The notes beneath the pieces were generated by a model that did no database searches, was not told where the DNA came from, and worked only from the letters and a program-made list of their open reading frames with translations. From Chamaelirium japonicum (taxonomy: Eukaryota; Streptophyta; Magnoliopsida; Liliales; Melanthiaceae), in NCBI GenBank assembly GCA_947650365.1, contig OX393549.1, forward strand, positions 30,843,209-30,907,208: a DNA stretch of 64,000 nt, in the 5' to 3' direction. The translations under genes were made by a program, and so were the position numbers. Of the stretch, positions 1 to 62,479 are shown in pieces (the stretch's first letter is position 1; each line of letters begins with the position of its first letter).

Positions 1-106
1 GGATACATTCATGCGAATGAATTAGAATGGATCGTACAAATGAATTAGAATGGATCGTACGAATGAATTAGAATGGATCTTACGAATGAATTAGAATGGA
101 TCGTAC

Positions 107-129
107 GAATGAATTAGAATGGATCGTAC
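107..129 (+). repeat. Consensus 23-bp monomer (type copy)
   Basis: This copy has the unmodified core and the linker CGTAC. Together with the following core it creates the 8-bp dyad TCGTACGA, so every monomer border is a small palindrome centred on GTAC with two CpG sites. GAATG occurs twice in the core, 10 bp apart, giving a roughly helical-turn phase inside a 23-bp period. Confidence 0.95.
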
Positions 130-756
130 GTATGAATTAGAATGGATCGTGCGAATGAATTAGAATGGATCCTACGAATGGATTAGAATGGATACCTTTG
201 TGCATATGAATTAGAATGGATTGTGCGAATGAATTAGAATGGACTGTACGAATGAATTAGAATGGATCGTGTGAAAGAATTAGAATGGATTGTACGAATG
301 ATTTAGAATGGATCGTACGAATGAATTAGAATGGATCGTACAAATGAATTACAATGGATCGTGTGAAAGAATTAGAATGGATCGTATGAATGAATTAGAA
401 TAGATCGTATGAATGAATTAGAATGGATCGTACGAATGAATTAGAATGGATCGTACGAATGAACTAGAATGGATACATTCGTGCGAATGAATTAGAATGG
501 ATCATACGAATGAATTAGAATGGATCGTACGAATGAATTAGAATGAATCTTACGAATGAATTAGAATGGATTGTACGAATGCATGATCCATGCGAATGAA
601 TTAGAATAGATCGTACGAATGAACTAGAATGGATACATTCGTGCGAATGAATTTGAATGGATCGTACGAATGAATTAGAATGGATCGTACGAATGAATTA
701 GAATGGATCTTACGAATGAGGAATGGATCGTACGAATGAATTAGAATGGATCGTAC

Positions 757-784
757 GAATGAATTAGAATGGATACATTCGTGC
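757..784 (+). repeat. Consensus 28-bp monomer (type copy)
   Basis: The 28-bp form is the 23-bp monomer with five extra bases (ACATT) between GGAT and the CG of the linker, and CGTGC in place of CGTAC. The extra bases create CATTC four bases after GAATG, so GAATG-GATA-CATTC can fold into a hairpin with a 5-bp stem and 4-nt loop. CGAATG at the core start can also pair with CATTCG. In most blocks 28-bp copies are scattered singly, one for about every three to seven 23-bp copies, and never form a long pure run. Confidence 0.92.
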
Positions 785-2987
785 GAATGAATTAGAATGG
801 ATCCGACGAATGAATTAGAATGGATCGTACGAATGAATTAGAATGGATCGTACGAATGAATTAGAATGGATCGTACGAATAAATTAGAATGGATACATTC
901 GTCCGAATGAATTAGAATGGATCATACGAATGAGTAAGAATGGATCGTACGAATGAAATAGAATAGATTGTACGAATGAATTAGAATGGATTCGTACGAA
1001 TGAATTAGAATGGATATATTCGTGCGAATGAATTAGAATGGATCGTACCAATGAGTAAGAATGGATCGTACGAATGAAATAGAATGGATTGTGCGAATGA
1101 ATTAGAATGGATCATACGAATGAATTAGAATGGATTGTACGAATTAATTAGAATGGATACATTCGAGCGAATGAATTAGAATGGATCGGACAAATGAATT
1201 AGAATGGATCGTACGAATGAATTAGAATGGATCAAATGAATGAATTAGAATGGTTACATTCATGCGAATGAATTAGAATAGATCGTACGAATGGATTAGA
1301 ATGGATCGTACGAATGGATTAGAATGGATACATTCGTGCGAATGAATTAGAATGGATTGTATGAATGAATTAGAATGGATCGTACGAATGACTTAGAATG
1401 GATCGTACGAATGAATTAGAATGGATATATTCGTGCGAATAAATTAGAATGGATTGTATGAATGAATTAGAATGGATCGTACGAATGAATTAGAATGGAT
1501 CGTACGAATGAATTAGAATAGATTGCGCGAATGAATTAGAATGGATCGTGCGAATGCAATAGAATGGATACAAATGAATTAGAATGGATCATACGAATGA
1601 ATTAGAATAACGATCCATTCTTACTTATTCGTATGATCCATTCTAATTTATTCGCACGAATGTATCCATTCTAATTCATTCGTACGTCTAATTCATTCGT
1701 ACGGTCCATTCTAATTCATTCGCATAATCCATTCTATTTCATTCGTACGATCCATTCTTACTCATTCGTATGATCCATTATGGATATATTCGTGCGAATG
1801 AATTAGAATGGATCATACGAATGAGTAAGAACGGATCGTACGAATGAAATAGAATGGATTGTGCGAATGAATTAGAATGGATCGTACGAATGAATTAGAA
1901 TGAATCGTGTGAAAGAATTAGAATGGATTGTATGAATGAATTAGAATAGATCGTATGAATGAATTAGAATGGATCGTACGAATGAATTAGAATAGATCAT
2001 ACGAATGAATTAGAATGGATCGTACGAATGAATTAGAATGGATACATTCGTGCGAATGAATTAGAATGGATACATTCGTGCGAAAGAATTAGAATAGATC
2101 GTATGAATGAATTAGAATGGATCCTATGAATGAATTAGAATGGATTGTTCGAATGAATTAGAATGGATCGTACGAATGAATTAGAATGGATCGTGCTAAT
2201 GAATTAGAATTGATCGAGCGAATGAAATAGCATGGATCGTGCTAATGAATTAGAATGGAACGTACAAATGAATTAGAATGGATCGTGTGAAAGAATTAGA
2301 ATGGATTGTATGAATGAATTAGAATGAATTCGTACGATCCATTCGAATTCATTCGCACGATCCATTCTAATTCATTCATAAGATCCATTCTAATTCATTC
2401 ATACAATCCATTCTAATTCTTTAACACGATCCATTCTAATTCATTCGTAGGATCCATTCTAATTCATTCGTACATTCTATTCTAGTTCATTTGTACGATC
2501 CATTCTTACTCATTCGTATGATACATTCTAATTCATTCGGACGAATGTATCCATTCTAATTTTTTTGTACGATCCATTCTAATTCATTCGTACGATCCAT
2601 TCTTACTCATTCGTATGATCCATTCTAATTCATTCGTACGATCCATTCTAATTCATTCGTACGATCGATTCTAATTCATTCGCACTATCCATTCTAATTC
2701 ATTCATACGATCCATTCTAATTCATTCATATGATCCATTCTAATTTATTCATTCAAATATAACCATTCTAATTCATTCGTACGATCCATTCTAATTCATT
2801 CGCACGATCCATTCTAATTCATTCGCACGAATGTATCCATTCTAATTCATTTGCACGATCCATTCAAATTCATTCCTATGATCTATTCTAATTCATTCGT
2901 ATGATCCATTCTAATTCATTCGTACGATCCATTTTACGATCCATTCTAATTCATTCGTATATTCCATTCTAATTCATTAGCACGATC

Positions 2988-3016
2988 CATGCTAATGAAT
3001 TAGAATGGATCGTACG
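2988..3016 (+). repeat. Lone plus monomer inside a minus block
   Basis: A single complete plus core (AATGAATTAGAATGGATCG) sits between minus monomers, entered by CACGATCCATGCT and left by CGTACGATCCAATC. An almost identical arrangement is at 38992-39016, inside another minus block. Confidence 0.82.
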
Positions 3017-3238
3017 ATCCAATCTAATTCAATCATACGATCCATTCTTACTCATTCGTATGATCCATTCTAATTCAATCGTACGATCCATTCTAATTCA
3101 TTCGTACGATCCATTCTAATTCCTTCGTACGATCCATTCTAATTCATTCGTACGATCCATTCTAATTAATTCGTACGATCCATTCTAATTCCTTCGTACG
3201 ATCCATTCTAATTCATTCGTACAATCTATTCTAATTCA

Positions 3239-3275
3239 TTCGTACGAATGGATACATTCGTATGAATGAATTAGA
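3239..3275. repeat. Junction class J4 (minus to plus, CGTACGAATGGATACATTCG)
   Basis: Minus DNA meets plus DNA at CGTACG, and the first plus unit is a truncated 28-bp monomer (AATGGATACATTCG). Copies start at 3241, 11119, 26417, 33375 and 50063. Reverse complements are at about 44971 and 59485, and a shortened form is at 37213. The 33375 and 44971 copies share the GGGAAC/GTTCCC variant. Confidence 0.85.
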
Positions 3276-4844
3276 ATGGATCGTACGAATGATTAAGAAT
3301 GGATCGTACGAATGAAATAGAATGGATTGCACGAATGAATTAGAATTGATCGTACGAATGAATTAGAATGGATCGTGCGAATGAATTAGAATGGATCATA
3401 CGAATGAATTAGAATGGATCGTACGAATGAACTAGAATGGATACATTCGTGCGAATGAATTAGAATGGATCGTACGAATGAATTAGAATGGATCGTACGA
3501 ATGAATTAGAATGGATCGTACGAATGAATTAGAATGGATCGTACGAATGAATTAGGATGGATACATTCTTGCAAATGAATTAGAATGGATCGGACGAATG
3601 AATTAGAATGGATCGTACGAATGAATTAGAATGGATCAAATGAATGAATTAGAATGGTTACATTCATGCGAATGAATTAGAATGGATCGTACGAATGGAT
3701 TAAAATGGATCGTATGAATGGATTAGAATGGATACATTCGAGCGAATGAATTAGAATGGATCGGACGAATGAATTAGAATGGATCGTACGAATGGATTAG
3801 AATGGATCCTACGAATGGATTAGAATGGATACCTTTGTGCATATGAATTAGAATGGATCGTACGAATGAATTAGAATGGATCATATTAATGAATTAGAAT
3901 GGATCGTACAAATGAATTAAAATGGATCGTACGAATGAATTAGAATGGATACATTCGTGCGAATGAATTAGAATGGATACATTCGTTCGAAAGAATTAGA
4001 TTAGATCGTATGAATGAATTAGAATGGATCCTATGAATGAATTAGAATGGATAGTGCGAATGAATTAGAATGGATCGTACGAATGAATTAGAATGGATCG
4101 TGCTAATGAATTAGAATTGATCGAATGAATGAATTAGAATGGATACATTCGTGCGAATGAATTAGAATGGATCGGACGAATGAATTAGAATGGATCGTAC
4201 GAATGAGTAAGAATGGATTGTACGAATTAAATAAAATAGATCGTACGAATGAATTAGAATGGATCGTACGAAGGAATTAGAATGGATCGTACGAATGAAT
4301 TAGAATGGATATATTTGTGCAAATGAATTAGAATGGATCGTATGAATGTATTAGAATGGATCGTATGAGTGAATTAGAATGGATCGTATGAATGAATTAG
4401 AATGGATCGTATGAATGAATTAGAATAGATAGATTCGTGTGAATGAATTAGAATGGATCGTACGAATGAATTAGAATAGCTCATACGAATGAATTAGAAT
4501 GAATCGTATGAATGAATTAGAATGGTTACATTCGTGCGAATGAATTAGAATAGATCGTACGAATGAATTAGAATGGATCGTACGAATAAATTAGAATGGA
4601 TCGTGGGAATGAATTAGAATGGATCGTACGAATGAATTAGAATGGATCCACCGAATGAGTTAGAATGGATCATACGAATGAATTAGAATGGATTGTTCGA
4701 ATGAATTAGAATGGATTGTGCGAATGAATTAGAATGGATCGTATGAATGAATAAGAATGGATCGTACGAATGAATTAGAATGGATCATGCGAATGAATTA
4801 GCATGAATCGTACGAATGTATTAGAATGGATCGTACGAATGAAT

Positions 4845-4875
4845 TAGAATGAATCGTACGATCCATTCTAATTCA
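4845..4875. repeat. Junction class J5 (plus to minus)
   Basis: AGAATGAATCGTACGATCC joins plus to minus at about 4857. The only other copy, at about 12712, lies at the same place in the second 7.88-kb block, so this class has two members by simple duplication. Confidence 0.8.
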
Positions 4876-5185
4876 ATCGTCCGATCCATTCTAATTCTTT
4901 CGCATGAATGTATCCATTCTAATTCATTCGTACAATCCATTCTATTTCATTCGTACGATCCATTCTTACTCATTTGTATGATCCATTCTAATTCATTCGT
5001 ATAATCCATTCTAATTCATTCGTACGATCCATTCTAATTCATTCGTACGATCCATTCTAATTCATTCGCACGATCCATTCTAATTCATTCATACGATCCA
5101 TTCTAATTCATTCATACGATCCATTCTAATTCATTCCTACAATCCATTCTAATTCATTCGCCCGATCCATTCTAATTCATTCATA

Positions 5186-5225
5186 CGATCCATTCTATTC
5201 GAATGGATCATGCGATCCATTCGAA
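5186..5225. repeat. Double-flip sliver inside a minus block
   Basis: Within minus DNA, CCATTCTATTCGAATGG is followed by ATCATGC and then minus DNA again, so 15-18 bp are reversed. The same sliver recurs near 13053, 30285 and 55045, each time about 400 bp before a J3 palindrome, so it travels with that block. Confidence 0.8.
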
Positions 5226-7535
5226 TTCATTCGCACGATCCATCCTAATTCATTCATACGATCCATTCTAATTCATTCATACAATGCATTCTAATTCTTT
5301 CACATGATCCATTCTAATTCATTCGTACGATCCATTCTAATTCATTTGTACAATCCATTCTATTTCATTTGTACGATCCATTCTTACTCATTCGTATGAT
5401 CCATTCTAATTCATTCGTACGATCCATTCTAATTCATTTGTACGATCCATTCTAATTCATTCGTACAATCCATTCTATTTCATTCGTACGATCTATTCTT
5501 ACTCATTCGTATGATCCATTCTAATTCATTCGCACGAATGTATCCACTCTAATTCATTCATACAATCCATTCTAATTCATTCCGTACGATCCATTCTAAT
5601 TCATTCGTACGATCGTACGAATGAATTAGACTGGATCGTACGAATGAATTAGAATAGATTGTGCGAATGAATTAGAATGGATCGTACGAATGAATAAGAA
5701 TGGATCGTACGAATGAATTAGAATGGATCATACAAATGAGTAAGAATGGATCGTACGAATGAATTAGAATGGATCGTACGAATGAATTAGAATGGATCGT
5801 ACGAATAAATTAGAATGGATACATTCATCCGAATGAATTAGAATGGATCATACGAATGAGTAAGAATGGATCGTACGAATGAAATAGAATAGATTGTACG
5901 AATGAATTAGAATGGATCCTACAAATGAATTAGAATGGATCGTGTGAAAGAATTAGAATGGATTGTATGAATGAATTAGAATGGATCGTATGAATGAATT
6001 AGAATGGATCGTGCGAATGAATTCGAATGGATCGTACGAATTCATTCTATTTCATTCATACAATCCATACTAATTCTTTCACACGATCCATTCTAATTCA
6101 TTCGTACGTTCCATTCTAATTCATTAGCACGATCCATGCTAATTCATTCGTTCGATCAATTCTAATTCATTAGCACGATCCATTCTAATTTATTCGTACG
6201 ATCCATTCTAATTCATTCGTACGATCCATTCTAATTCATTCGCCACGATCCATTCTAATTCATTCATAGTATCCATTCTAATTCATTCATACGATCTATT
6301 CTAATTCTTTCGCACGAATGTATCTATTCTAATTCATTCGCACGAATGTATCAATTCTAATTCATTCGTACGATCCATTCTAATTCATTCGTACGATCCA
6401 TTCTAATTCATTCATACGATCTATTCTAATTCATTCATACAATCCATTCTAATTCTTTCACACGATCCATTCTAATTCATTCGTACGATCCATTCTTACA
6501 AAATGGTACGATCCATTCTAATTCATTCGCACGAATGTATCCATTCTAATTCATTCGTACGAATCCATTCTAATTCATTCGTACAATCTATTCTATTTCA
6601 TTCGTACGATCCATTCTTACTCATTCGTATGATCCATTCTAATTCATTCGGATGAATGTATACATTCTAATTTATTCGTACGATCCATTCTAATTCATTC
6701 GTACGATCCATTCTAATTCATTCATACGATCCATTCTAATTCATTCGTCCGATCCATTCTAATTCATTCGCACGAATGTATCCATTCTAATTCATTCGTA
6801 CGATCCATTCTAATTCATTCGTACGATCCATTCTAATTAATTCGTAAGATCCATTCTAATTCATTCATACGATCCATTCTAATTCATTCGTACGATCCAT
6901 TCTATTTCATTCGCACGAATGTATCCATTCTAGTTCATTCGTACGATCCATTCTAATTCATTCGTACGATCCATTCTAATTCATTCGCACGATCCATTCT
7001 AATTCATTTGTACGATCCATTCTAATTCATTCATACGATCCATTCTAATTCATTCGCACGAATGTATCCATTCTAATTCATTCATACGATCCATTCTAAT
7101 TCATTCGTACGATCCATTCTAATTCATTCGTACGATCCATTCTAATTCATTCGTACGTTCCATTCTAATTCATTAGCACGATCCATGCTAATTCATTTGT
7201 TCGATCAATTCTAATTCATTAGCACGATCCATTCTAATTCATTTGTACGATCCATTCTAATTCATTCGCACGATCCATTCTAATTCATTCGTACGATCCA
7301 TTCTAATTCATTCGCACGATCCATTCTAATTCATTCATAGGATCCATTCTAATTCATTCATACGATCTATTCTAATTCTTTCGCACGAATGTATCCATTC
7401 TAATTCATTCACACGAATGTATCCATTCTAATTTATTCGTATGATCCATTCTAATTCATTCGCACAATCCATTCTATTTCATTCGTACGATCCATTCTTA
7501 CTCATTCGTATGATCCATTCTAATTCATTCGCACG

Positions 7536-7572
7536 AATGTATCCATAATGGATCATACGAATGAGTAAGAAT
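7536..7572. repeat. Junction class J2 (minus to plus, CCATAATGG)
   Basis: Type copy, with CCATAATGG at 7543-7551. Others are at 15443, 19678, 28581, 43336, 56841 and 61453, all followed by ATCATAC and a monomer with GAGTAAG. The reverse complement J2' (CCATTATGG) is at 1775, 10264, 18141, 22274, 34933, 36447 and 57744, all followed by a 28-bp monomer. There are seven copies of each orientation. Confidence 0.88.
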
Positions 7573-8351
7573 GGATCATACGAATGAAATAGAATGGATT
7601 GTGCGAATGAATTAGAATGGATCGTACGAATGAACTAGAATGGATACATTCGTGCGAATGAATTAGAATGGATCGTACGAATGAATTAGAATGGATCGTA
7701 CGAATGAATTAGAACGAATGAATTAGAATGGATACATTCGTGCGAATGAATTAGAATGGATCGGACGAATGAATTAGAATGGATCGTACGAATGAGTAAG
7801 AATGGATCGTACGAATGAAATAGAATAGATCGTACGAATGAATTAGAATGGATCGTACGAAGGAATTAGAATCGATCGTACGAATGAATTAGAATGGATA
7901 TATTCGTGCAAATGAATTAGAATGGATCGTATGAATGTATTAGAATGGATCGTATGAGTGAATTAGAATGGATCGTACGAATGAATTAGAATGGATCGTA
8001 TGAATGAATTAGAATGGATACATTTGTGTGAATGCATTAGAATGGATCGTATGAATGAATTAGAATAGATTTTTTGAAGGAATTAGAACTGATCGTACGA
8101 ATGAATTAGAATGGATACATTCGTGCGAATGAATTAGAATGGATTGTATGAATGAATTAGAATGGATCCTATGAATGAATTAGAATGGATCGTGCCTATG
8201 AATTAGAATGGATCGTACGAATGAATTAGAATGGATCGTGCTAATGAATTAGAATTGATCGAACGAATGAATTAGCATGGATCGTGCTAATGAATTAGGA
8301 TGGAACGTACGAATGAATTAGAATCGATCGGGTGAAAGAATTAGAATGGAT

Positions 8352-8402
8352 TGTATGAATGAATTAGAATGAATTCGTACGATCCATTCGAATTCATTCG
8401 CA
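8352..8402. repeat. Junction class J1 (plus to minus, GAATTC centre)
   Basis: Type copy of the commonest switch. A plus monomer ending AGAATGAATTC joins minus DNA that begins CGTACGATCC and has a second GAATTC about 20 bp on. GAATTC starts at 2326, 8371, 10695, 16225, 18572, 20450, 22705, 26822 and 40499. The exact reverse complement (J1') is at 6038, 13870, 31102, 36088, 49109, 56413 and 60928, with a shortened form at 37828. Confidence 0.88.
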
Positions 8403-11062
8403 CGATCCATTCTAATTCATTCATACGATCCATTCTAATTCATTCATATAATCCATTCTAATTCTTTCACACGATCCATTCTAATTCATTCGTAGGATCC
8501 ATTCTAATTCATTCGTACAATCTATTCTATTTCATTCGAACGCTCGAATGTATCCATTCTAATCCATTCGTACGATCCATTCTAATTCATTCGCATGACT
8601 GTAACCATTCTAATTCATTCATACGATCCATTGTAATTCATTCGCACGATCCATTCTAATTCATTCGTACGATCAGTTCTAATTCATTCACAAAATCTAT
8701 TCTAATTCATTCATACGATCCATTCTAATTCATTCACACGAATGCGTCCATTCTAATTCATTCATATGATCCATTCTATTCATTCGTACGATCCATTCTT
8801 ACTCATTGGTACGATCCATTCTTATTCATTCGCACGATCCATTCTAATTCATTCGTACGATCCATTCTAATTCATTCGTATGATCCATTCTAATTCATTC
8901 GTACGATCCATTCTAATTCATTCGTAAGATCCATTCTAATTCATTCGTACGATCCATTCTAATTCATTCGTACGATCCATTCTAATTCATTCGCACGAAT
9001 GTATCCATTCTAGTTCATTCATACGATCCATTCTAATTCATTCGTACGATCCATTCTAATTCATTCGCACGATCCATTCTAATTAATTCGTACGATCCAT
9101 TCTAATTCATTCATACGATCCATTCTAATTCATTCGTACGATCCATTCTAATTCATTCGCACAAATGTATCCATTCTAATTCATTCGTACGATCCATTCT
9201 AATTCATTCGCACGATCCATTCTAATTCATTCGTACGATCCATTCGAATTCTTTCACACGATCCATTCTAATTCATTCGTACGATCCATTCTAATTCATT
9301 CGCACGATCCATTCTAATTCATTCGTACGATCCATATTAATTCATTCATACGATCCATTCTAATTCATTCGTACGAGCCATTCTAATTCATTCGTCCGAT
9401 CCATTCTAATTCATTCTATTCATTCGTACGATCCATTCTTACTCATTGGTACGATCCATTCTAGTTCATTCGTACGATCCATTCTAGTTCATTCGTACGA
9501 TCCATTCTAATTCATTCGTACGATCCATTCTAATTCATTCGTAAGATCCATTCTAATTCATTCGTACGATCCATTCTAATTCATTCGTACGATCAGTTCT
9601 TATTCATTCGCACAATCCATTCTAATTCATTCGCACGAATGTATCCATTCTAATTCATTCGTACGATCCATTCTAATTCATTCGTACGATCCATTCTAAT
9701 TCATTCGTATGATCCATTCTAATTAATTCGTATGATCCATTCTAATTCATTCGTACGATCCATTCTAATTCATTCATATAATCCATTCTAATTCATTCGC
9801 ACGAATGTATCCATTCTAATTAATTCGTACGATCCATTCTAATTCATTCGTACGATCCATTCTAATTCATTCGCACAATCCATTCTATTTCATTCTTATG
9901 ATCCATTCTTACTCATTGGTACGATCCATTCTAATTCATTCGCACGAATGTATCCATTCTAATTCATTCGTACGAATCCATTCTAATTCATTCGTACAAT
10001 CTATTCTATTTCATTCGTACGATCCATTCTTACTCATTCGTATGATCCATTCTAATTCATTCGGGCGAATGTATCCATTCTAATTTATTCGTACGATCCA
10101 TTCTAATTCATTCGTACGATCCATTCTAATTCATTCGTCCGATCCATTCTAATTCATTCGCACGAATGTATCCATTCTAATTCATTCGTATGGTCCATTC
10201 TAATTCATTCGCACAATCCATTCTATTTCATTTGTACGATCCATTCTTACTCATTCGTATGATCCATTATGGATACATTCGTGCGAATGAATTAGAATGG
10301 ATCATACAAATGAGTAAGAATGGATCGTACGAATGAAATAGAATGGATTGTGCGAATGAATTAGAATGGATCGTACGAATGAATTAGAATATATCGTGTG
10401 AAAGAATTAGAATGGATTGTATGAATGACCTAGAATAGATCGTATGAATGAATTAGAATGGATTGTACGAATGAATTAGAATAGATCGTACGAATGAATT
10501 AGAATGGATCGTACGAATAAATTAGAATGGATACATTCGTCCGAATGAATTAGAATGGATCATACGAATGAGTAAGAATGGATCGTACGAATGAAATAGA
10601 ATAGATTGTACGAATGAATTAGAATGGATCCTACGAATGAATTAGAATAGATCGTGTGAAAGAATTAGAATGGATTGTATGAATGAATTAGAATGAATTC
10701 GTGCGATCCATTCGAATTCATTCGCACGATCCATTCTAATTCATTCATACGATCTATTCTAATTCATTCATACAATCCATTCTAATTCTTTCACACGATC
10801 CATTCTAATTCATTCGTAGGATCCATTCTAATTCATTCGTACAATCTATTCTATTTCATTCGTACGATCCATTCTTACTCATTCGTATGATCCATTCTAA
10901 TTCATTCGGACGAATGTATCCATTCTAATTTATTCGTACGATCCATTCTAATTCATTCGTACGATCTATTCTAATTCATTCGTACGATCCATTCTAATTT
11001 ATTCCTACGATCTATTCTAATTCATTCATACGATTCATTCTAATCCATTCGCACGATCCATT

Positions 11063-14000
11063 CTAATTCCTTCGTACGATCCATTCTAATTCATTCGTAC
11101 AATCTATTCTAATTCATTCGTACGAATGGATACATTCGTGTGAATGAATTAGAATGGATCGTACGAATGAGTAAGAATGGATCATACGAGTGAAATAGAA
11201 TGGATTGCACGAATGAATTAGAATTGATCGTACGAATGAATTAGAATGGATCGTGCGAATGAATTAGAATGGATCATACGAATGAATTAGAATGGATCGT
11301 ACGAATGAACTAGAATGGATACATTCGTGCGAATGAATTAGAATGGATCGTACGAATGAATTAGAATGGATCGTACGAATGAATTAGAATGGATCGTACG
11401 AATGAATTAGAATGCATACATTCGTGCGAATGAATTAGAATGGATCGGACGAATGAATTAGAATGGATCGTACGAATGAATTAGAATGGATCAAATGAAT
11501 GAATTAGAATGGTTACATTGATGCGAATAAATTAGAATGGATCGTACGAATGGATTAGAATGGATCGTACGAATGGATTAGAATGGATACATTCGAGCGA
11601 ATGAATTAGAATGGATCGTACGAATGAATTAGAATGGATCGTATGAATGGATTAGAATGGATCCTACGAATGGATTAGAATGGATACCTTTGTGCATATG
11701 AATTAGAATGGATCGTACGAATGAATTAGAATGGATCATATTAATGAATTAGAATGGATCGTACGAATGAATTAAAATGGATCGTATGAATGAATTAGAA
11801 TGGATACATTCGTGCGAATGAATTAGAATGGATACATTCGTGCGAAAGAATTATAATAGATCGTATGAATGAATTAGAATGGATCCTATGAATGAGTTAG
11901 AATGGATAGTGCGAATGAATTATAATGGATCCTACGAATGAATTAGAATGGATCGTGCTAATGAATTAGAATTGATCGAACGAATGAATAAGAATGGATA
12001 CATTCGTGCGAATGAATTAGAATGGATCGGACGAATGAATTAGAATGGATCGTACGAATGAGTAAGAATGGATCGTACGAATTAAGTAGAATAGATCGTA
12101 CGAATAAATTTGAATGGATCGTACGAAGGAATTAGAATGGATCGTACGAATGAATTAGAATGGATATATTTGTGCAAATGAATTAGAATGGATCGTATGA
12201 ATGTATTAGAATGGATCGTATGAGTGAATTAGAATGGATCGTACGAATGAATAAGAATGGATCGTATGAATGAATTAGAATGGATACATTCGTGTGAATG
12301 AATTAGAATGGATCGTACGAATGAATTAGAATAGCTCATACGAATGAATTAGAATGAATCGTATGAATGAATTAGAATGGTTACATTCGTGCGAATGAAT
12401 TAGAATAGATCATACGAATGAATTAGAATGGATCGTACGAATAAATTAGAATGGATCATGGGAATGAATTAGAATGGATCGTACGAATGAATTAGAATGG
12501 ATCCACCGAATGAGTTAGAATGGATCATACGAATGAATTAGAATGGATTGTTCGAATGAATTAGAATGGATTGTGCAAATGAATTAGAATGGATCGTATG
12601 AATGAATAAGAATGGATCGTACGAATGAATTAGAATGGATCGTGCGAATGAATTAGCATGAATCGTACGAATGTATTAGAATGGATCGTACGAATGAATT
12701 AGAATGAATCGTACGATCCATTCTAATTCAACCGTCCGATCCATTCTAATTCATTCGCATGAATGTATCCATTCTAATTCATTCGTACAATCCATTCTAT
12801 TTCATTCGTACGATCCATTCTTACTCATTCGTATGATCCATTCTAATTCATTCGTATGATCCATTCTAATTCATTCGTACGATCCATTCTAATTCATTCG
12901 TACGATCCATTCTAATTCGTTCGCATGATCCATTCTAATTCATTCATACGATCCATTCTAATTCATTCATACGATCCATTCTAATTCATTCCTACAATCC
13001 ATTCTAATTCATTCGCCCGATCCATTCTAATTCATTCATACGATCCATTCTATTCGAATGGATCATGCGATCCATTCGAATTCATTCGCACGATCAATCC
13101 TAATTCATTCAAACGATCCATTCTAATTCATTCATACAATGCATTCTAATTCTTTCACATGATCCATTCTAATTCATTCGTACGATCCATTCTAATTCAT
13201 TTGTACAATCCATTCTATTTCATTTGTACGATCCATTCTTACTCATTCGTATGATCCATTCTAATTCATTCGTACGATCCATTCTAATTCATATGTACGA
13301 TCCATTCTAATTCATTCGTACAATCCATTCTATTTCTTTCGTACGATCCATTCTTACTCATTCGTATGATCCATTCTAATTCATTCGCACGAATGTATCC
13401 ATTCTATTTCATTCATACAATCCATTCTAATTCATTCCGTACGATCCATTCTAATTCATTCGTACGATCGTACGAATGAATTAGAATGGATCGTACGAAT
13501 GAATTAGAATAGATTGTGCGAATGAATTAGAATGGATCGTACGAATGAATTAGAATGGATCATACGAATGAGTAAGAATGGATCCTACGAATGAATTAGA
13601 ATGGATCGTACGAATGAATTAGAATGGATCGTACGAATAAATTAGAATGGATACATTCGTCCGAATGAATTAGAATGGATCATACGAATGAGTAAGAATG
13701 GATCGTATGAATGAAATAGAATAGATTGTACGAATGAATTACAATGGATCCTACGAATGAATTAGAATGGATCGTGTGAAAGAATTAGAATGGATTGTAT
13801 GAATGAATTATAATGGATCGTACGAATGAATTAGAATGGATCGTGCGAATGAATTCGAATGGATCATACGAATTCATTCTAATTCATTCATACAATCCAT
13901 TCTAATTCTTTCACACGATCCATTCTAATTCATTCGTACGTTCCATTCTAATTCATTAGCACGATCCATGCTAATTCATTCGTTCGATCAATTCTAATTC

Positions 14001-47812: not shown

Positions 47813-50800
47813 CCATTCTAATTCATTCGTACGATCCATTCTAATTCATTCGTACGATCCATTCTAATTCATTCGTAAGATCCATTCTAATTCATTTGTA
47901 CGATCCATTCTAATTCATTAATACAATCCATTCTAATTCTTTCACACGATCCATTCTAATTCATTCGCACGATATATTCTAATTCATTCGTACAATCCAT
48001 TCTAATTCATTCGTACGATCCATTCTAATTCATTCGTCTGATCCATTCTAATTCATTCGCATGAATGTATCCATTTTAATTCATTCGTACGATCCATTCT
48101 AATTCATTCGTAAGATCCATTCTAATTCATTCGTACGATCCATTCTAATTCATTCGTACGATCCATTCTAATTCATTCGCACGAATGTATCCATTCTTGT
48201 TCATTCGTACGATCCATTCTAATTCATTCGTACGATCCATTCTAATTCATTCGCACGATCCATTCTAATTCATTCGTACGATCCATTCTAATTCATTCAT
48301 ACGATCCATTCTAATTCTTTCGTACGATCCATTCTAATTCATTCGCACAAATGTATCCATTCTAATTCATTCGTACGATCCATTCTAATTCATTCGCACG
48401 ATCCATTCTTACTCATTCGTATGATCCATTCTAATTCATTCGGACTAATGTATCCATTCTAATTTATTCGTACGATCCATTCTAATTCATTCGTACGATC
48501 CATTCTAATTCATTCGTAAGATCGAATGGATCGTACGAATGAATTAGAATGGATCGTACGAATGAATTAGAATGGATACATTCGTGCGAATGAATTAGAA
48601 TGGATACATTCGTGCGAAAGAATTAGAATAGATCTTATGAATGAATTAGAATGGATCCTATGAATAAATTAGAATGGATCGTGCGAATGAATTAGAATGG
48701 ATCGTACGAATGAATTAGAATGGATCATGTGAAAGAATTAGAATGGATCGTACGAATGAATTAGAATGGATCGTGCGAATGAATTAGAATGGATCGTACG
48801 AATGAATTAGAATGGATACATTTGTGCGAATGAAGTAGAATGGATCGTACGAATGAATTAGAATGGATCGTGCTAATGAATTAGAATTGATCGAACGAAT
48901 GAATTAGCATGGATCGTGCTAATGAATTAGAAAGGATCGTACGAATGAATTAGAATGGATCGTGCGAATGAATTAGAATGGATCGTACGAATGAATTAGA
49001 ATGGATACATTTGTGCGAATGAATTAGAATGGATCGTACGAATGAATTAGAATGGATCGTATGAACGAATTAGAATGGATCGTGCGAATGAATTCGAATG
49101 GATCATACGAATTCATTCTAATTCATTCATACAATCCATTCTAATTGTTTCACACGATCCATTCTAATTCATTCGTACGTTCCATTCTAATTCATTAGCA
49201 CGATTCATGCTAATTCATTCGTTCGTTCAATTCTAATTCATTAGCACGATCCATTCTAATTCATTCGTACGATCCATTCTAATTCATTCGCACGATCCAT
49301 TCTAATTCATTCATAGGATCCATTCTAATTCATTCATACGATCTATTCTAATTCTTTCGCACAAATGTATCTATTCTAATTCATTCGCACGAATGTATCC
49401 ATTCTAATTCATTCGTACGATCCATTCTAATTCATTCGTACGATCCATTCTAATTCATTCGTACGATCAATTCTAATTCATTCATACGATCTATTCTAAT
49501 TCATTCATACAATCCATTCTAATTCTTTCACACGATCCATTCTAATTCATTCGTACGATCCATTCTAATTCCTTTGTACGATCCATTCTAATTCATTCGT
49601 ACGATCTATTCTAATTCATTCGTAAGATCCATTCTAATTCACTCATACGATCCATTCTAATACATTCATACGATCCATTCTAATTCATTTGCACGAATAT
49701 ATCCATTCTAATTCATTCGTACGATCCATTCTAATTCATTCGTACGATCTATTCTAATTCATTCGTACGATCCATTCTAATTCATTCGTACGATCCATTC
49801 TAATTCCTTCGTACGATCCATTCTAATTCATTCGTACGATCCATTCTAATTCATTCATACAATCCATTCTAATTCTTTCACACGATCCATTCTAATTCAT
49901 TCGTACGATCCATTCTAAATCCTTCGTACGATCCATTCTAATTCATTCGTACGATCTATTCTAATTCATTCGTACGATCCATTCTAATTCCTTCGTACGA
50001 TCCATTCTAATTCATTCGTACGATCCATTCTAATTCATTCGTACAATCTATTCTAATTCATTCGTACGAATGGATACATTCGTGTGAATGAATTAGAATG
50101 GATCGTACGAATGAGTAAGAATGGATCGTACGAATGAAATAGAATGGATTGCACGAATGAATTAGAATAGATCGTACGAATGAATTAGAACGGATCGTGT
50201 GAAAGAATTAGAATGGATTGTATGAATGAATTAGAATGGATCGTACGAACGAATTAGAATGGATCGTACGAAGGAATTAGAATGGATCGTACGAATGAAT
50301 TAGAATGGATCGTACGAATGAATTAGAATAGATCGTACGAATGAATTAGAATGGATTGTACGAAGGAATTAGAATGGATCGTACAAATGAATTAGAATGG
50401 ATATATTCGTGCAAATGAATTAGAATGGATCGTATGAATGTATTAGAATGGATCGTATGAGTGAATTAGAATGGATCGTACGAATGAATTAGAAATGATC
50501 GTACGAATGAATTAGAATGGATCGTGCGAATGAATTAGAATGCATCGTACGAATGAATTAGAATGGATCGTACGAATGAACTAGAATGGATACATTCGTG
50601 CGAATGAATTAGAATAGATCGTACGAATGAATTAGAATGGATCGTACGAATGAATTAGAATGGATACATTCGTGCGAAGGAATTAGAATGGATCGTACGA
50701 ATGAATTAGAATGGATCGTACGAATGAATTAGAATGGATCGTATGAATGAATTAGAATGGATACATTCGTGCGAATGAATTAGAATTGATCGTACGAATG

Positions 50801-51543: not shown

Positions 51544-54329
51544 GGATCGTACGAATGAATTAGAATGGATACATTCGTGCGAATGAATTAGAATTGATCG
51601 TACGAATGAATTAGAATGGATCGTGAGAATGAATTAGAATGGATCGTACGAATGAATTAGAATGGATCATACGAATGAACTAGAATGGATACATTCGTGC
51701 GAATGAATTAGAATGGATCGTACGAATGAATTAGAATGGATCGTACGAATGAATTAGAATGGATCTTATGAATGAATTAGAATGGATCGTACGAATGAAT
51801 TAGAATGGATCGTACAAATGAATTAGAATGGATACATTCGTGCGAATGAATTAGAATGGTTCGGACGAATGAATTAGAATGGATCGTACGAATGAATTAG
51901 AATGGATCAAATGAATGAATTAGAATGGTTATATTCATGCGAATGAATTAGAATGGATCGTACGGAATGAATTAGAATGGATTGTATGAATGAATTAGAA
52001 TGGATACATTCGTGCGAATGAATTAGAATGGATCATACGAATGAGTAAGAATGGATCGTACGAATGAAATAGAATGGATTATACGAATGAATTAGAATGG
52101 ATCGTACAAATGAATTAGAATGGATCGTACGAATGAATTAGAATGGATTGCACGAATGAATTAGAATGGATCGTACGAATGAATTAGAATGGATCGTGTG
52201 AAAGAATTAGAATGGATTGTATGAATGAATTAGAATGGATCGTACGAATGAATTAGAATGGATCGTACGAAGGATTTAGAATGGATACATTCGTGCGAAT
52301 GAATTAGAATGGATACATTCGGGCGAAAGAATTAGAATAGATCGTATGAATGAATTAGAATGGATCCTATGAATGAATTAGAATGGATCGTGCGAATGAA
52401 TTAGAATGGATCGTGCTAATGAATTAGAATTGATCGAACGAATGAATTAGCATGGATCGTGCTAATGAATTAGAATGGAACGTACGAATGAATTAGAATG
52501 GATCGTGTGAAAGAATTAGAATGGATTGTATGAATGAATTAGAATGGATCGTACGAAGGAATTAGAATGGATCGTACGAATGAATTAGAATGGATCGTAC
52601 GAATGAATTAGAATAGATTGTACGAATGAATTAGAATGGATCGTACGAATGAATTAGAATGGATCGTGTGAAAGAATTAGAATGGATCGTACGAATGAAT
52701 TAGAATGGATCGTGCGAATGAATTAGAATGGATCATACGAATGAATTAGAATGGATCGTGCTAATGAATTAGAATGGATCATACGAATGAGTAAGAATGG
52801 ATCGTACGAATGAAATAGAATGGATTGTACGAATGAATTAGAATGGATCGTACAAATGAATTAGAATGGATCATACGAATGAAATAGAATGGATTGCACG
52901 AATGAATTAGAATGGATCGTACGAATGAATTAGAATGGATCGTGTGAAAGAATTAGAATGGATTGTATGAATGAATTAGAATGGATCGTACGAATGAATT
53001 AGAATGGATCGTACGAAGGAATTAGAATGGATCGTACGAATGAATTAGAATGGATCGTACGAATGAATTAGAATGGTTACATTTGTGCGAATGAATTAGA
53101 ATGGATCGTACGGAATGAATTAGAATGGATTATATGAATGAATTAGAATGGATACATTCGTGCGAATGAATTAGAATGGATCATACGAATGAGTAAGAAT
53201 GGATCGTACGAATGAATTAGAATGGATCGTACGAATGAATTAGAATAGATCTTACGAATGAATTAGAATGGATCGTACGAATGAATTAGAATGGATCGTA
53301 CGAATGAATTAGAATGGATCGTGCGAATGAATTAGAATGGATCGTACCAATGAGTAAGAATGGATCGTACGAATGAATAGAATGGATCGTATGAATGAAT
53401 TAGAATGGATACATTCGTGTGAATGAATTAGAATGGATCGTATGAATGAATTCGAATAGATTTTGTGAAAGAATTAGAATGGATTAGAATGGATCGTACG
53501 AATGAATTAGAATGGATACATTCGTGCGAATGAATTAGAATGGATCGGACGAATGAATTAGAATGGATCGTACGAATGAATTAGAATGGATCGTACGAAT
53601 GAATTAGAATAGATTGTACGAATGAATTAGAATGGATCAAATGAATGAATTAGAATGGTTACATTCATGCGAATGAATTAGAATGGATCGTACGAATGGA
53701 TTAGAATGGATACATTCGTGCGAATGAATTAGAATGGATCGTACGAATGAATTAGAATGGATCGTACGAATGAATTAGAATGGATCTTACGAATGAATTA
53801 GAATGGATCGTACGAATGAATTAGAATGGATACATTCGTGCGAATAAATTAGAATGGATCGGACGAATGAATTAGAATGGATCGTACGAATGAATTAGAA
53901 TGGATCAAATGAATGAATTAGAATGGTTACATTCATGCGAATGAATTAGAATGGATCGTACGGAATGAATTAGAATGGATTGTATGAATGAATTAGAATG
54001 GATACATTCGTGCGAATGAATTAGAATGGATCATACCAATGAGTAAGAATGGATCGTACGAATGAAATAGAATGGATTGTACGAATGAATTAGAATGGAT
54101 CGTACAAATGAATTAGAATGGATCGTACGAATGAATTAGAGTGGATTGCACGAATGAATTAGAATGGATCGTACGAATGAATTAGAATGGATCGTGTGAA
54201 AGAATTAGAATGGATTGTATGAATGAATTAGAATGGATCGTATGAATGAATTAGAATGGATCGTATGAAGGAATTAGAATGGATACATTCGTGCGAATGA
54301 ATTAGAATGGATACATTCGTGCGAAAGAA
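51544..54329 (+). repeat. 2.8-kb plus block with a 24-bp marker monomer
   Basis: This single-orientation run contains an unusual monomer with an extra G in the linker (CGTACGGAATG) at 51963, 53111 and 53961. Each is followed by the same series of monomers. The 1148- and 850-bp spacings show three head-to-tail copies of a local module of unequal length. The block ends at 54327-54332 with AGAATTCT, a GAATTC switch not related in flanks to J1. Confidence 0.8.
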
Positions 54330-57300
54330 TTCTAATTCATTCCCACGATCCATTCTAATTTATTCGTACGATCCATTCTAATTCATTCGTACGATCTATT
54401 CTAATTCATTCGCACGAATGTAACCATTCTAATTCATTCATACGATTCATTCTAATTCATTCGTATGAGCTATTCTAATTCATTCGTACGATCCATTCTA
54501 ATTCATTCGTACGATCCATTGTAATTCATTCATACAATCCATTTAGATTGATTCGCACAAATGTATCCATTCAAATTCATTCGTACGATCCAGTCTAATT
54601 CATTCGTACGATCCATTCTAATTCATTCGCACGAATATATCCATTCTAATTCTTTCGTATGATGCATTCTAATTCATTCGTACGATCCATTCTAATTCAT
54701 TCGTACGATCCATTCTAATTCTTTCGTACGATCCATTCTAATTCATTCGCACGAATGTATCCATTCTAATTCATTCGTACAATCCATTCTATTTCATTCG
54801 TACGATCCATTCTTACTCATTCGTATGATCCATTCTAATTCATTCGTATGATCCATTCTAATTCATTCGTACGATCCATTCTAATTCATTCGTACGATCC
54901 ATTCTAATTCATTCGCACGATTCATTCTAATTCATTCATACGATCCATTCTAATTCATTCATACGATCCATTCTAATTCATTCCTACAATCCATTCTAAT
55001 TCATTCGCCCGATCCATTCTAATTCATTCATACGATCCATTCTATTCGAATTGATCATGCGATCCATTCGAATTCATTCGCACGATCCATTCTAATTCAT
55101 TCATACGATCCATTCTAATTCATTCATACAATGCATTCTAATTCTTTCACACGATCCATTCTAATTCATTCGTACGATCCATTCTAATTCATTCGTACAA
55201 TCCATTCTATTTCATTTGTACGATCCATTCTTACTCATTCATATGATCCATTCTAATTCATTCGTACGATCCATTCTAATTCATTTGTACGATCCATTCT
55301 AATTCATTCGTACAATCCATTCTATTTCATTAGTACGATCCATTCTTACTCATTCGTATGATCCATTCTAATTCATTCGCACGAATATATCCATTCTAAT
55401 TCATTCATACAATCCATTCTAATTTATTCCGTACGATCCATTCTAATTCATTCGTACGATCGTACGAATGAATTAGAATGGATCGTACGAATGAATTAGA
55501 ATAGATTGTGCGAATGAATTACAATGGATCGTACGAATGAATTAGAATGGATCGTACGAATGAATTAGAATGGATCATACGAATGAGTAAGAATGGATCG
55601 TACGAATGAATTAGAATGGATCGTACGAATGAATTAGAATGGATCGTACGAATAAATTAGAATGGATACATTCGTCCGAATGAATTAGAATGGATCATAC
55701 GAATGAGTAAGAATGGATCGTACGAATGAAATAGAATAGATTGTACGATTGAATTAGAATGGATCCTACGAATGAATTAGAATGGATCGTGTGAAATACG
55801 AATGAATTATAATGGATATATTCGTGCAAATGAATTAGAATGGATCGTATGAATGTATTAGAATGGATCGTATGAGTGAATTAGAATGGATCGTGCGAAT
55901 GAATTAGAATGGATTGTATGAATGAATTAGAATGGATCGTACGAATGAATTAGAATGGATTGTACGAATGAATTAGAATGGATCGTACGAATGAACTAGA
56001 ATGGATACATTCGTGCGAATGAATTAGAATGGATCGTACGAATAAATTAGAATGGATCGTGCGAATGAATTAGAATGGATCGTATGAATGAATTAGAATA
56101 GATCGTATGAATGAATTAGAATGGATCATACGAATGAATTAGAATAGATCGTACGAATGAATTAGAATGGATCGTATGAATAAATTAGAATGGATACATT
56201 CGTCCGAATGAATTAGAATGGATCATACGAATGAGTAAAAATGGATCGTACGAATGAAATAGAATAGATTGTACGAATGAATTAGAATGGATCCTACGAA
56301 TGAATTAGAATGGATCGTGTGAAAGAATTAGAATAGATTGTATGAATGAATTAGAATGGATCGTATGAATGAATTAGAATGGATCGTGCGAATGAATTCG
56401 AATGGATCGTACGAATTCATTCTAATTCATTCATACAATCCATTCTAATTCTTTCACACGATCTATTCTAATTCATTCGTAGGATCCATTCTAATTCATT
56501 CGTACAATCTATTCTATTTCATTCGTACGATCCATTCTTACTCATTCGTATGATCCATTCTAATTCATTCGGACGAATGTATCCATTCTAATTTATTCGT
56601 ACGATCCATTCTAATTCATTCGTACGATCTATTCTAATTCATTCGTACGATCCATTCTAATTCATTCATACGATCTATTCTAATTCATTCATACAATCCA
56701 TTCTAATTCTTTCACACGATCCATTCTAATTCATTCGTACGATCCATTCTAATTCATTCGTACAATCCATTCTATTTCATTCGTACGATCCATTCTTACT
56801 CATTCGTATGATCCATTCTAATTCATTCGCACGAATGTATCCATAATGGATCATACGAATGAGTAAGAATGGTCGTACGAATGAAATAGAATGGATTGTG
56901 CGAATGAATTAGAATGGACCGTATGAATGAATTAGAATGGATACATTCGTGCGAATGAATTAGAATGGATCGGACGAATGAATTAGAATGGATCGTACGA
57001 ATGAATTAGAATGGATCGTACGAATGAATTAGAATGGATCGTACGAATAAATTAGAATGGATACATTCTTCCGAATGAATTAGAATGGATCATACGAATG
57101 AGTAAGAATGGCTCGTACGAATGAAATAGAATAGATTGTACGAATGAATTAGAATGGATTCGTACGAATGAATTAGAATGGATACATTCGTGCGAATGAA
57201 TTAGAATGGATCGTACCAATGAGTAAGAATGGATCGTACGAATGAAATAGAATGGATTGTGCGAATGAATTAGAATGGATCATACGAATGAATTAGAATG

Positions 57301-57579
57301 GATCGTACGAATTAATTAGAATGGATACATTCGTGCGAATGAATTAGAATGGATTGTATGAATGAATTAGAATGGATCGTACGAATGAATTAGAATGGAT
57401 CATACGAATTAATTAGAATGGATTATACGAATGAATTAGAATGGATCGTACGAATGAATTAGAATGGATCGTACGAATGAATTAGAATAGATTGCGCGAA
57501 TGAATTAGAATGGATCGTGCGAATGAAATAGAATGGATACAAATGAATTAGAATGTATCATACGAATGAATTAGAATGA
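54330..57579. repeat. Satellite region 15: includes inverted 430-bp module
   Basis: Blocks are minus 54330-55459 (copy of 29620-30705), plus to J1' at 56413, minus to J2 at 56841-56849 and plus to J6 at 57579. The minus block 56416-56844, bounded by J1' and J2, is the reverse complement of the plus blocks at 10267-10697, 18145-18574 and 22278-22707, which are bounded by J2' and J1. Size (about 430 bp) and monomer order agree throughout. Confidence 0.82.
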
Positions 57580-60500
57580 CGATCCATTCTTACTCATTCG
57601 TATGATCCATTCTAATTTATTCGCACAAATGTATCCATTCTAATTCATTCGTATGTCTAATTCATTCGTACGGTCCATTCTAATTCATTCGCACAATCCA
57701 TTCTATTTCATTCGTACGATCCATTCTTACTCATTCGTATGATCCATTATGGATACATTCGTGCGAATGAATTAGAATGGATCATACGAATGAGTAAGAA
57801 TGGATCGTACGAATGAAATAGAATGGATTGTGCGAATGAATTAGAATGGATCGTACGAATGAATTAGAATGGATCATGTGAAAGAATTAGAATGGATTGT
57901 ATGAATGAATTAGAATAGATCGTATGAATGAATTAGAATGGATCGTACGAATGAATTAGAATGGATCGTATGAATGAATTAGAATGGATCGTACGAATGA
58001 ATTAGAATGGATACATTCGTGCGAATGAATTAGAATGGATCATACGAATGAGTAAGAATGGATCATCATTCTAATTCATTCGTATGATCCATTCTAATTC
58101 ATTTGTATCCATTCTATTTCATTCGCACGATCCATTCTAATTCATTCGCGCAATCTATTCTAATTCATTCGTACGATCCATTCTAATTCATTCGTACGAT
58201 CCATTCTAATTCATTCTTACAATCCATTCAAATTTATTCGCACTAATGTATCCATTCTAATTCATTCGTACGATCCATTCTAATTCATTCGCACAATCTA
58301 TTCTAATTCATTCATACGATCCATTCTAATTCATTCGCACGAATGTATCCATTCTAATTCATTCATACGATCCATTCTACTTCATTCGTACTATCCGTTC
58401 TAATTCACTCATACGATTCATTCTAATTCATTTATACGATCCATTCTAATTCATTTGCACGAATTTATCCATTCTAATTCATTCGTACGATCTATTCTAA
58501 TTCCTTCGTACGATCCATTCTAATACCTTCGTACGATCCTTTCTAATTCTTTCGTACGATCCATTCTATTTCATTCGTACGATCCATTCTAATTCACTCA
58601 TACGATCCATTCTAATACATTCATACGATCCATTCTAATTCATTTGCTCGAATATATCCATTCTAATTCATTCGTACGATCCATTCTAATTCCTTCGTAT
58701 GATCCATTCTAATTCATTCGTACGATCTATTCTAATTCATTCGTACGATCCATTCTAATTCCTTCGTACGATCCATTCTAATTCCTTCGTACGATCCATT
58801 CTATTTCATTCGTATGATCCATTCTAATTTCTTCGTACGATCCATTCTAATTCCTTCGTATCCATTCTAATTTACTCATACGATCCATTCTAATTCATTC
58901 GTATGATCCATTCTAATTCATTCATACAATCCATTCTAATTCATTCGCACGAATGTATCCATTCTAATTCATTCGTACGATCAGTTCTAATTCATTCACA
59001 AAATCTATTCTAATTCATTCATACGATCCATTCTAATTCATTCACACGAATGTATTCATTCTAATTCATTCATACGATCCATTCTAATTCATTCGTACGA
59101 TCCATTCTAATTCACTCAAACGATCCATTCTAATACATTCATACGATCCATTCTAATTCATTTGCACGAATATATCCATTCTAATTCATTCGTACGATCC
59201 ATTCTAATTCCTTCGTACGATCCATTCTAATTTATTCGTACGATCTATTCTAATTCATTCGTACGATCCATTCTAATTCATTCGTACGATCCATTCTAAT
59301 TCCTTCGTACGATCCATTCTAATTCCTTCGTACGATCCATTCTAATTCATTCACACGATCCATTCTAATTCATTCGTACGATCCATTCTAATTCATTCGT
59401 GCAATCCATTCTATTTCATTCGTACGATCCATTCTTACTCATTCGTACGATCCATTCTAATTCATTCACACGAATGTATCCATTCGTACGAATGAATTAG
59501 AATAGATTGTACGAATGAATTAGAATGGATCGCACTAACGAATTTGAATGGATCGTACGAAGGAATTAGAATGGATCGTACGAATGAATTAGAATGGATC
59601 ATAAGAATGAATTAGAATAGATCGTACGAAGGAATTAGAATGGATCGTACGAATGAATTAGAATGGATATATTCGTGCAAATGAGTTAGAATGGATCGTA
59701 TGAATGAATTAGAATGGATCGTATGAGTGAATTAGAATGGATCGTACGAATGAATTAGAATGGATTGTATGAATGAATTAGAATGGATCGTACGAATGAA
59801 TTAGAATGGATCATACGAATTAATTAGAATGGATTATACGAATGAATTATAATGGATCGTACGAATGAATTAGAATAGATCGTATGAATGAATTAGAATG
59901 GTTACATTCGTGCAAATGAATTAGAATGGATTGTGCGAATGAATAATAACAGATCGTGCGAATGAATTAGAATGGATCGTACGAATGAATTAGAATGGAT
60001 CGTGCGAATGAATTAGAATGGATCGTACGAATGAATTAGAATGGATACATTTGTGCGAATGAATTAGAATGGATCGTACGAATGAATTAGAATGGATCGT
60101 ATGAATGAATTAGAGTGGATCGTACGAATGAATTAGAATGGATCGTGCGAATGAATTAGAATGGATCGTACGAATGAATTAGAATGGATCGTGTGAAAGA
60201 ATTAGAATGGATCGTACGAATGAATTAGAATGGATCGTGCGAATGAATTAGAATGGATCGTACGAATGAATTAGAATGGATACATTTGTGTGAATGAATT
60301 AGAATGGATCGTACGAATGAATTAGAATGGATCATATGAATGAATTAGAATGGATCGTACGAATGAATTAGAATGGATCGTGCGAATGAATTAGAATGGA
60401 TCGTACGAATGAATTAGAATGGATCATACGAATGAACTAGAATGGATACATTCGTGCGAATGAATTAGAATGGATCGTACGAATGAATTAGAATGGATCG

Positions 60501-61488
60501 TACGAATGAATTAGAATGGATCTTACGAATGAATTAGAATGGATCGTACGAATGAATTAGAATGGATCGTACAAATGAATTAGAATGGATACATTCGTGC
60601 GAATGAATTAGAATGGATCGGACGAATGAATTAGAATGGATCGTACGAATGAATTAGTATGGATCGTACGAATGAATTAGAATGGATCGTACGAATAAAT
60701 TAGAATGGATACATTCATCCGAATGAATTAGAATGGATCATACGAATGAGTAAGAATGGATCGTACAAATGAAATAGAATAGATTGTACGAATGAATTAG
60801 AATGGATCCTACGAATGAATTAGAATGGATCGTGTGAAAGAATTAGAATGGATTGTATGAATGAATTAGAATGGATCGTATGAATGAATTAGAATGGTTC
60901 GTGCGAATGAATTCGAATGGATCATACGAATTCATTCTAATTCATTCATACAATCCATTCTAATTCTTTCACACGATCCATTCTAATTCATTCGTACGTT
61001 CCATTCTAATTCATTAGCATGATCCATGCTAATTCATTCATTCGATCAATTCTAATTCATTAGCACGATCCATTCTAATTCATTCGTACGATCCATTCTA
61101 ATTCATTCGCACGATCCATTCTAATTCATTCATAGGATCTATTCTAATTCATTCATACGATCTATTCTAATTCTTTCGCACGAATGTATCCATTCTAATT
61201 CATTCGCACGAATGTATCCATTCTAATTCATTCGTACGATCCATTCTAATTCATTCGTACGATCCATTCTAATTCATTCATACGATCTATTCTAATTCAT
61301 TCTTGCAATCCATTCTAATTCTTTCACACGATCCATTCTAATTCATTCGTACGATCCATTCTAATTCATTCGCACAATCCATTCTATTTCATTCGTACGA
61401 TCCATTCTTACTCATTCGTATGATCCATTCTAATTCATTCGCATGAATGTATCCATAATGGATCATACGAATGAGTAAGAATGGATCG
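57580..61488. repeat. Satellite region 16: array end at the retroelement
   Basis: Blocks are minus 57580-57747, plus to 58067, minus to 59487, plus to J1' at 60928, minus to J2 at 61453-61461, then 32 bp of plus sequence that stops where the LTR begins. Since J2 flanks elsewhere continue with a plus run of at least 170 bp, the array is cut by the insertion here and does not end naturally. Confidence 0.85.
61484..61488. other. Candidate 5-bp target-site copy GATCG
   Basis: These five satellite bases directly precede the LTR. Ty3/Gypsy integrases usually duplicate 5 bp, so GATCG should reappear directly after the 3' LTR, which lies beyond the window. GATCG is part of the normal linker region of the 23-bp monomer, so the insertion split one monomer. 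Confidence 0.6.
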
Positions 61489-62463: not shown

Positions 62464-62479
62464 GGGCCACCATAGGCCG

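Follow-up and report, generated by a model that had tools for sequence, protein, structure and literature searches.

Strand flips of the Chio1/Chio2 centromeric satellite are reused across the genome of Chamaelirium japonicum and may have spread by copying between units

A stretch of 64,000 nucleotides from the Chamaelirium japonicum assembly GCA_947650365.1 (contig OX393549.1; hereafter, the window), located at C1:30843209-30907208 on chromosome-scale scaffold 1, consists over its first 61,488 bases of a short tandem repeat whose strand flips again and again. The question raised by this locus is whether such flips were made anew in each array of the genome, or whether segments already carrying them were copied from array to array. 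The window almost certainly lies in the interior of a unit of the centromeric satellite Chio1/Chio2, and its flips are reused genome-wide, having been amplified, we infer, by local duplication and by copying between units. The satellite itself is already known and published, and the possible value of the locus lies in the flips as markers.

1..61488, mixed strand: Chio1/Chio2 centromeric satellite array, 67 blocks of alternating strand

Monomers were detected using a 19-base anchor common to both monomers (up to 6 mismatches, three shuffles as control), and 2577 anchored monomers were found in the window compared with 40–54 in the three shuffles. The spacing of same-orientation neighbors (n = 2510) was 23 bp in 2106 cases and 28 bp in 333; the remaining 71 included 23 spacings of 24 bp, with the others spread over 17–45 bp. 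The lengths of "exactly 23 and 28 bp" given in a preliminary description of this DNA thus hold for 97% of the spacings and fail for these 71. The largest anchor spacing in the array was no more than 60 bp, and Tandem Repeats Finder, which reported a period of 23 with 28-bp stretches, agreed with the anchor result. The 23-mer consensus is ATCCATTCTAATTCATTCGTACG (from 2106 monomers, mean column agreement 0.934) and the 28-mer consensus is ATCCATTCTAATTCATTCGCACGAATGT (from 333 monomers, 0.962); the latter differs from the former by one substitution and 5 extra bp. Within the array (1..61488) the monomer holds three ATTC sub-repeats (autocorrelation of 0.47 at 4 bp), a hint that it originated from a short microsatellite. 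Orientation switches 66 times, with 1382 monomers pointing one way and 1195 the other, and bases 1–61488 form one array, as expected from the earlier claim of more than 61 kb with frequent strand flips.

The satellite was identified by its fit to the published account of Chionographis japonica. The main text of the 2023 paper describes Chio1 and Chio2 as intermingled 23- and 28-bp monomers that differ by 5 bp and one base and lie in mixed orientation, and gives the Chio cluster CL1, the most abundant repeat cluster, as 16.11% (PMC10264360). The 9-mer TTCGTACGA, published as common to Chio and Chama (PMC12722358), has 495 + 442 occurrences in the array, one figure per strand. Genome-wide counts were made on the assembly of 1,518,659,071 bp (3253 contigs), in which the consensus 23-mer has 1,127,746 + 1,113,496 exact matches on the two strands and its reversed-letter control has 0; extrapolation from the sampled monomer density puts the satellite at ~273–281 Mb, or ~18% of the assembly. 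The 23/28 mix, the 5-bp and one-base difference, the 9-mer, the abundance, and the mixed orientation were therefore all found here, and the fit of the monomer description and the 9-mer identifies the satellite as the known, CENH3-associated Chio1/Chio2, in line with the Chionographis-type satellite proposed beforehand. That it is an unrelated minisatellite, or a subtelomeric repeat of another organism resembling Chio, is hardly conceivable, given that the abundance across the genome speaks against it and that nothing was found in its favor, although a likeness in length alone would permit it. A 32-base piece of the array had no exact match in viral or prokaryote collections, which are not expected to hold plants.

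According to the main text of the same paper, CENH3 chromatin immunoprecipitation (ChIP) peaks coincide with Chio arrays in both uni- and multi-mapping modes, and ~100 megabase-scale CENH3-bearing units, 0.24–4.46 Mb in size, together make up the holocentromere (PMC10264360). This coincidence in the published assembly argues against a Chio array without a kinetochore here, i.e., a pericentromere-like portion of this satellite that lacks CENH3. We hold that alternative to be improbable but worth keeping in mind, as super-resolution revealed only ~65% overlap of the Chio1 and CENH3 signals (PMC10264360), and a retrotransposon in the window, with long terminal repeats (LTRs) differing by a Kimura two-parameter distance (K2P) of 0.0189, also counts in its favor.

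The 66 switches of the window belong to few sequence types, of which the commoner ones are present in both orientations, and part of the array is duplicated together with several flips:

1750..1785: example of flip junction J1, 13 in the window (seven in one orientation, six in the other)
2311..2355: example of flip junction J2, with 15 flips of the J2 spacing class in the window
2798..11125, + strand: 8.4-kb direct segmental duplication with several flips, copy 1, 94.7% identical to copy 2
10697..19007, + strand: 8.4-kb direct segmental duplication, copy 2

Across the genome (up to 2 mismatches), J1 was found at 10,888 places (5449 forward, 5439 reverse), J2 at 23,028 (11522 forward, 11506 reverse), and J3 at 7236 forward and 7550 reverse, with the strands nearly balanced and controls of 0 for all three. 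A sample of flips was then compared, drawn from the window and the stretches L010–L056 (48 sequences, L001–L009 left out), of which the 32 with at least 50 anchors were used and 16 were dropped. The sample is non-random, as many stretches were chosen tens of kb from a known junction match and two (L029 and L030) were taken at or beside junction-query matches. It contained 287 switches, one of which, near a sequence end, was dropped. The resulting 286 flips fell into 42 families at 3 edits in 28 bases (21 singletons; 223 flips in the ten largest) and into 28 families at 4 edits (9 singletons; 235 flips in the ten largest). Nineteen families were detected in at least two of 21 labeled units or contigs and together account for 261 of the 286 flips; the unit labels were assigned in the analysis, and some of them (C1 30.3–31.1 and 28–29 Mb, unplaced contigs) may stand for a single unit. 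Of the window's own flips, 61 of 66 belong to families also found outside C1:30.3–31.1 Mb. The flips are not independent of one another. We found no report of shared flip junctions in Chionographis among the titles and abstract openings searched, and the word "junction" is absent from the main texts of both Chionographis papers (PMC10264360, PMC12722358).

Shared junctions could reflect copying or recurrence, and the sequences flanking them bear on this. For the 17 largest families, 150-base flanks were compared between units (up to 150 pairs a side) against a null of 2000 flip-free same-orientation pairs from different units (mean 0.860, 95th percentile 0.920). Same-junction flanks passed this percentile in 939 of the 1870 inter-unit comparisons, whereas those of different junctions did so in 4.6% of 1504. 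Flank means of 0.94–0.98 were obtained for families 0, 5, and 11, and for family 1 on its right side. Two dyads, TCGTACGA and GATC, were considered as possible sites of joining, the latter exemplified by one flip of the window:

5589..5636, no strand assigned: flip at the GATC dyad

If, unit by unit, fold-back repair at the same TCGTACGA or GATC dyads had produced the flips anew, their sharing would be convergent. In agreement with this, 66 of the 286 flips show the spacing that joining at either dyad would give, and neither family 6, a perfect palindrome at GATC, nor family 12, with the TCGTACGA dyad spacing, has shared flanks; recurrence is plausible for these two families. Convergence is nevertheless very doubtful as the explanation of the sharing, because 220 of the 286 flips lack the spacing of these two dyads (the only ones considered), because flanks are shared at 94–98%, against a null mean of 86%, in the non-dyad families 0, 5, and 11 and on the right side of family 1, and because rare junctions keep their order across tens of kb, as described below.

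Mean similarity was the same within units as between them (0.860 each), so no private monomer pools are visible at the 150-base scale. For most of 13 families, flank similarity (at fixed phase) dropped at offsets of at least 475 bp. Taken alone, this drop would point to short tracts; long ones are suggested by the rare junctions. Four such junctions were selected in the window:

24924..24954, + strand: rare flip junction A, genome-wide 503 (up to 2 mismatches), 46 exact
29362..29394, + strand: rare flip junction C, genome-wide 58 (up to 1 mismatch), 9 exact
48509..48537, + strand: rare flip junction D, 104 exact genome-wide
54319..54351, + strand: rare flip junction E, genome-wide 50 (up to 2 mismatches), 20 exact

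Collinearity was profiled for 65 A, 58 C, and 33 E places (each with up to 1 mismatch) and for 100 D places among the matches listed. A lies within 100 kb of 24 of the 33 E sites, compared with ~1.7 expected, a figure that assumes even density on 250 Mb and is read with the caution that local duplication (8.4 kb, 94.7%, in the window) makes sites dependent. The nearest A has the same orientation as E at 22 of these 24 sites and is upstream at 23. The 22 same-orientation sites, with A upstream of E by 11–88 kb, span 11 contigs, i.e., seven chromosome scaffolds (C1, C2, C3, C5, C6, C7, and C9) and four unplaced contigs. D was listed within 100 kb of 16 of the 33 E sites, upstream and in the same orientation in all 16 and at 5.0–6.0 kb in 10 of them, and none of the E sites on C2, C3, C5, C6, and C12 has a listed D within 100 kb; the presence of D near some E sites but not others indicates at least two versions of the block. 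C lies within 100 kb of 22 of the 65 A sites, with the nearest C in the same orientation at all 22 and upstream at 20, and nine sites on C3, C5, C6, C7, and C9 share an A–C separation of 17–19 kb. In the window and its copy on C1, the nearest C is instead found downstream of A, at 4.4 kb, and other C-like places lie at least 47 kb upstream. Given this different layout, the C of the window may be a different junction from that of C5 or C9.

Few copies were compared letter by letter, and high identity between chromosomes was seen in this way for one pair only, C5 and C9, whose copies are 99.66% identical without gaps over 874 bp and lie in opposite orientation. The window is 99.2% identical to C1:28.268 Mb over 1500 bp, also without gaps, at a distance of 2.60 Mb; against the C5 and C9 stretches it shows 88% with many gaps, no higher than the null. 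The retrotransposon boundary of the window is found exactly at the matching place of C1:28.30 Mb, so this pair either split after the insertion or is allelic, and on C5 and C6 none of the boundary matches listed falls near an E site. Copies of the A–C block also occur in same-orientation pairs 0.75–1.0 Mb apart on C5 (2.3/3.3, 80.8/81.8, and 83.9/84.9 Mb) and C7 (3.8/4.6 Mb). These pairs may stem from large duplications or from a tandem placement of two haplotypes.

These last observations touch on the possibility that shared junctions and collinear blocks are an assembly effect, due to retained haplotypes or to Hi-C misplacement of satellite contigs. The assembly, at 1.519 Gb, does exceed the 1.368 Gb measured for the genome; the copy nearest to the window, 2.60 Mb off on C1, looks allele-like in its shared retrotransposon boundary and 99.2% identity; and the block copies on C5 and C7 are paired at 0.75–1.0 Mb. 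Two haplotypes, however, give at most two copies per locus, whereas there are 22 A–E sites on 7 scaffolds and 4 unplaced contigs, and the common junctions number thousands. Neither retained alleles nor Hi-C placement easily removes 22 sites on 11 contigs, and we regard an assembly effect as unlikely, if far from negligible; the number of chromosomes with blocks could be overstated.

Several points weigh against an interior Chio1/Chio2 unit with flips amplified by copying. The match to Chio1/Chio2 was made at the level of the published description, and CENH3 on the window is carried over from published genome-wide data. The flanks of families 6, 9, 12, 15, 17, 21, and 23 were not clearly above the null (nor were the left flanks of families 2 and 4), so some flips may be recurrent. 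Since similarity is equal within and between units, gradual genome-wide homogenization could also yield shared junctions.

The evidence favors long-tract copying between units, because 261 of 286 flips are shared, J2 has ~23,000 copies, and the rare junctions are collinear at 22 sites; retained haplotypes and scaffold misplacement are the caveats. In the process that we envisage, flips would have arisen a limited number of times (once or rarely), partly at dyads, and would then have been amplified locally in multi-kb duplications. Long tracts of array carrying them may subsequently have been copied from unit to unit, perhaps within shared chromocentres, and the present mixed orientation would be largely inherited, not made anew per unit. 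The mechanism by which units came to be distributed chromosome-wide is stated as unknown in the main text of one paper (PMC12722358), and that of the other names as options gene conversion, extrachromosomal circular DNA (eccDNA), or inversions that break within the satellite (PMC10264360). It is an evenly balanced proposition that flips are heritable landmarks of holocentromere spread, in which blocks of ~10–90 kb with a fixed junction order have been copied between units on about seven chromosomes in either orientation, some of them recently, such as the C5 and C9 copies. On this view the units would exchange sequence as a single pool, supplied by long-tract copying through break-induced replication, reinsertion of eccDNA, or shared-chromocentre exchange, and would not be independent seeds from short repeats. 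Junctions at ~50 to ~23,000 copies, some of them ordered over tens of kb, would separate the published routes by tract length, orientation, and age on existing data.

Folding distinguished the monomer from some of the flips. One Chio1 dimer, folded in one phase with DNA parameters, reached -1.1 kcal/mol, which 152 of 200 shuffles equaled or bettered, and in this one dimer no stable hairpin between neighboring Chio1 monomers was found. In consensus form, the GATC flip makes a perfect palindrome of 50 bp that folds at -23 kcal/mol, a value reached by 0 of 200 shuffles. The idea that the monomers form palindromes is accordingly weak at the monomer level and holds for the GATC flip. J2 is intermediate (-4.8 kcal/mol, 5 of 200 shuffles as good), and the J1 piece is no real palindrome (-2.6 kcal/mol, 49 of 200). 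Should non-B DNA play a role, certain flips are more promising candidates for it than the monomer.

The remainder of the window belongs to an inserted element:

61484..61488, + strand: left copy of the 5-bp target site duplication GATCG
61489..62692, + strand: 5' LTR of a Ty3-type retrotransposon, with the 3' LTR beyond the window
62782..63999, + strand: gag reading frame, open at the window end (Retrotrans_gag, E 1.2e-8)

The array end at 61488 is exact, as the LTR begins at the next base. A matching LTR lies 11.9 kb further on, after which Chio resumes, GATCG stands on both sides, and the element measures 13.1 kb in total. An array edge at 61488 was thereby ruled out, the satellite continuing behind a retrotransposon insertion; the window had been placed inside a unit or at its edge, and only the former stands. 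In spot samples along C1, Chio was present in all from 30.3 to 31.1 Mb outside the element (the one at 30.3 Mb and one other being only partly Chio), absent at 29.5, 30.0, and 31.3–33.0 Mb, and present again at 28.0 and 29.0 Mb. Two of three reading frames searched had Pfam matches, one to Retrotrans_gag and the other to RVT_1, RNase H-like domains, and an integrase zinc-binding domain; reverse transcriptase, RNase H, and integrase in that order are what we take to make the element Ty3-type. Its pol holds two separate RNase H-like regions, and long opposite-strand open frames lie between pol and the 3' LTR. The LTRs diverge by K2P 0.0189 over 1182 sites, which would be ~0.73 million years at the rate that we assume (1.3e-8 per site and year). 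Genome-wide, 43 places (up to 2 mismatches; 29 forward and 14 reverse) have the LTR start next to the GGATCG phase of the monomer, which suggests that the element family either invaded Chio arrays more than once or was copied along with them.

Among known systems, the array agrees with Chio1/Chio2 as described in the main text of the 2023 paper in monomer lengths, the 5-bp and one-base difference, mixed orientation, and abundance (PMC10264360). It differs in that a hairpin between neighboring monomers was predicted there, whereas here it was no better than shuffles, and in the shared flip junctions, which that main text does not describe (PMC10264360). Chama of Chamaelirium luteum, from the sister genus, is likewise centromeric and has TTCGTACGA in common with Chio, but its main-text description gives a 60-bp monomer of consistent orientation, arrays without retrotransposons, and one macro-centromere per chromosome (PMC12722358). 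The macro-dyad satellites TmSat1 and TmSat2 of the beetle Tribolium madens, a close precedent likened here by description, resemble Chio in frequent array inversion and in inversion sites conserved across thousands of copies, and we count their little contig-specific clustering and the interchromosomal exchange proposed for them as further likeness (PMC13081366). They differ in their putative (peri)centromeric location, in monomers derived from a ~110-bp element, and in three named inversion types (PMC13081366). By this analogy, the Tribolium-type trait of sequence-conserved inversion sites genome-wide is present in Chio, unevenly between families, while collinear rare junctions over tens of kb, seen in Chio, do not appear in the Tribolium madens text as available (PMC13081366). 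The flip-junction layer may thus be regarded as a plant, holocentric parallel to that of Tribolium madens, to which the collinear rare junctions would be the added piece.

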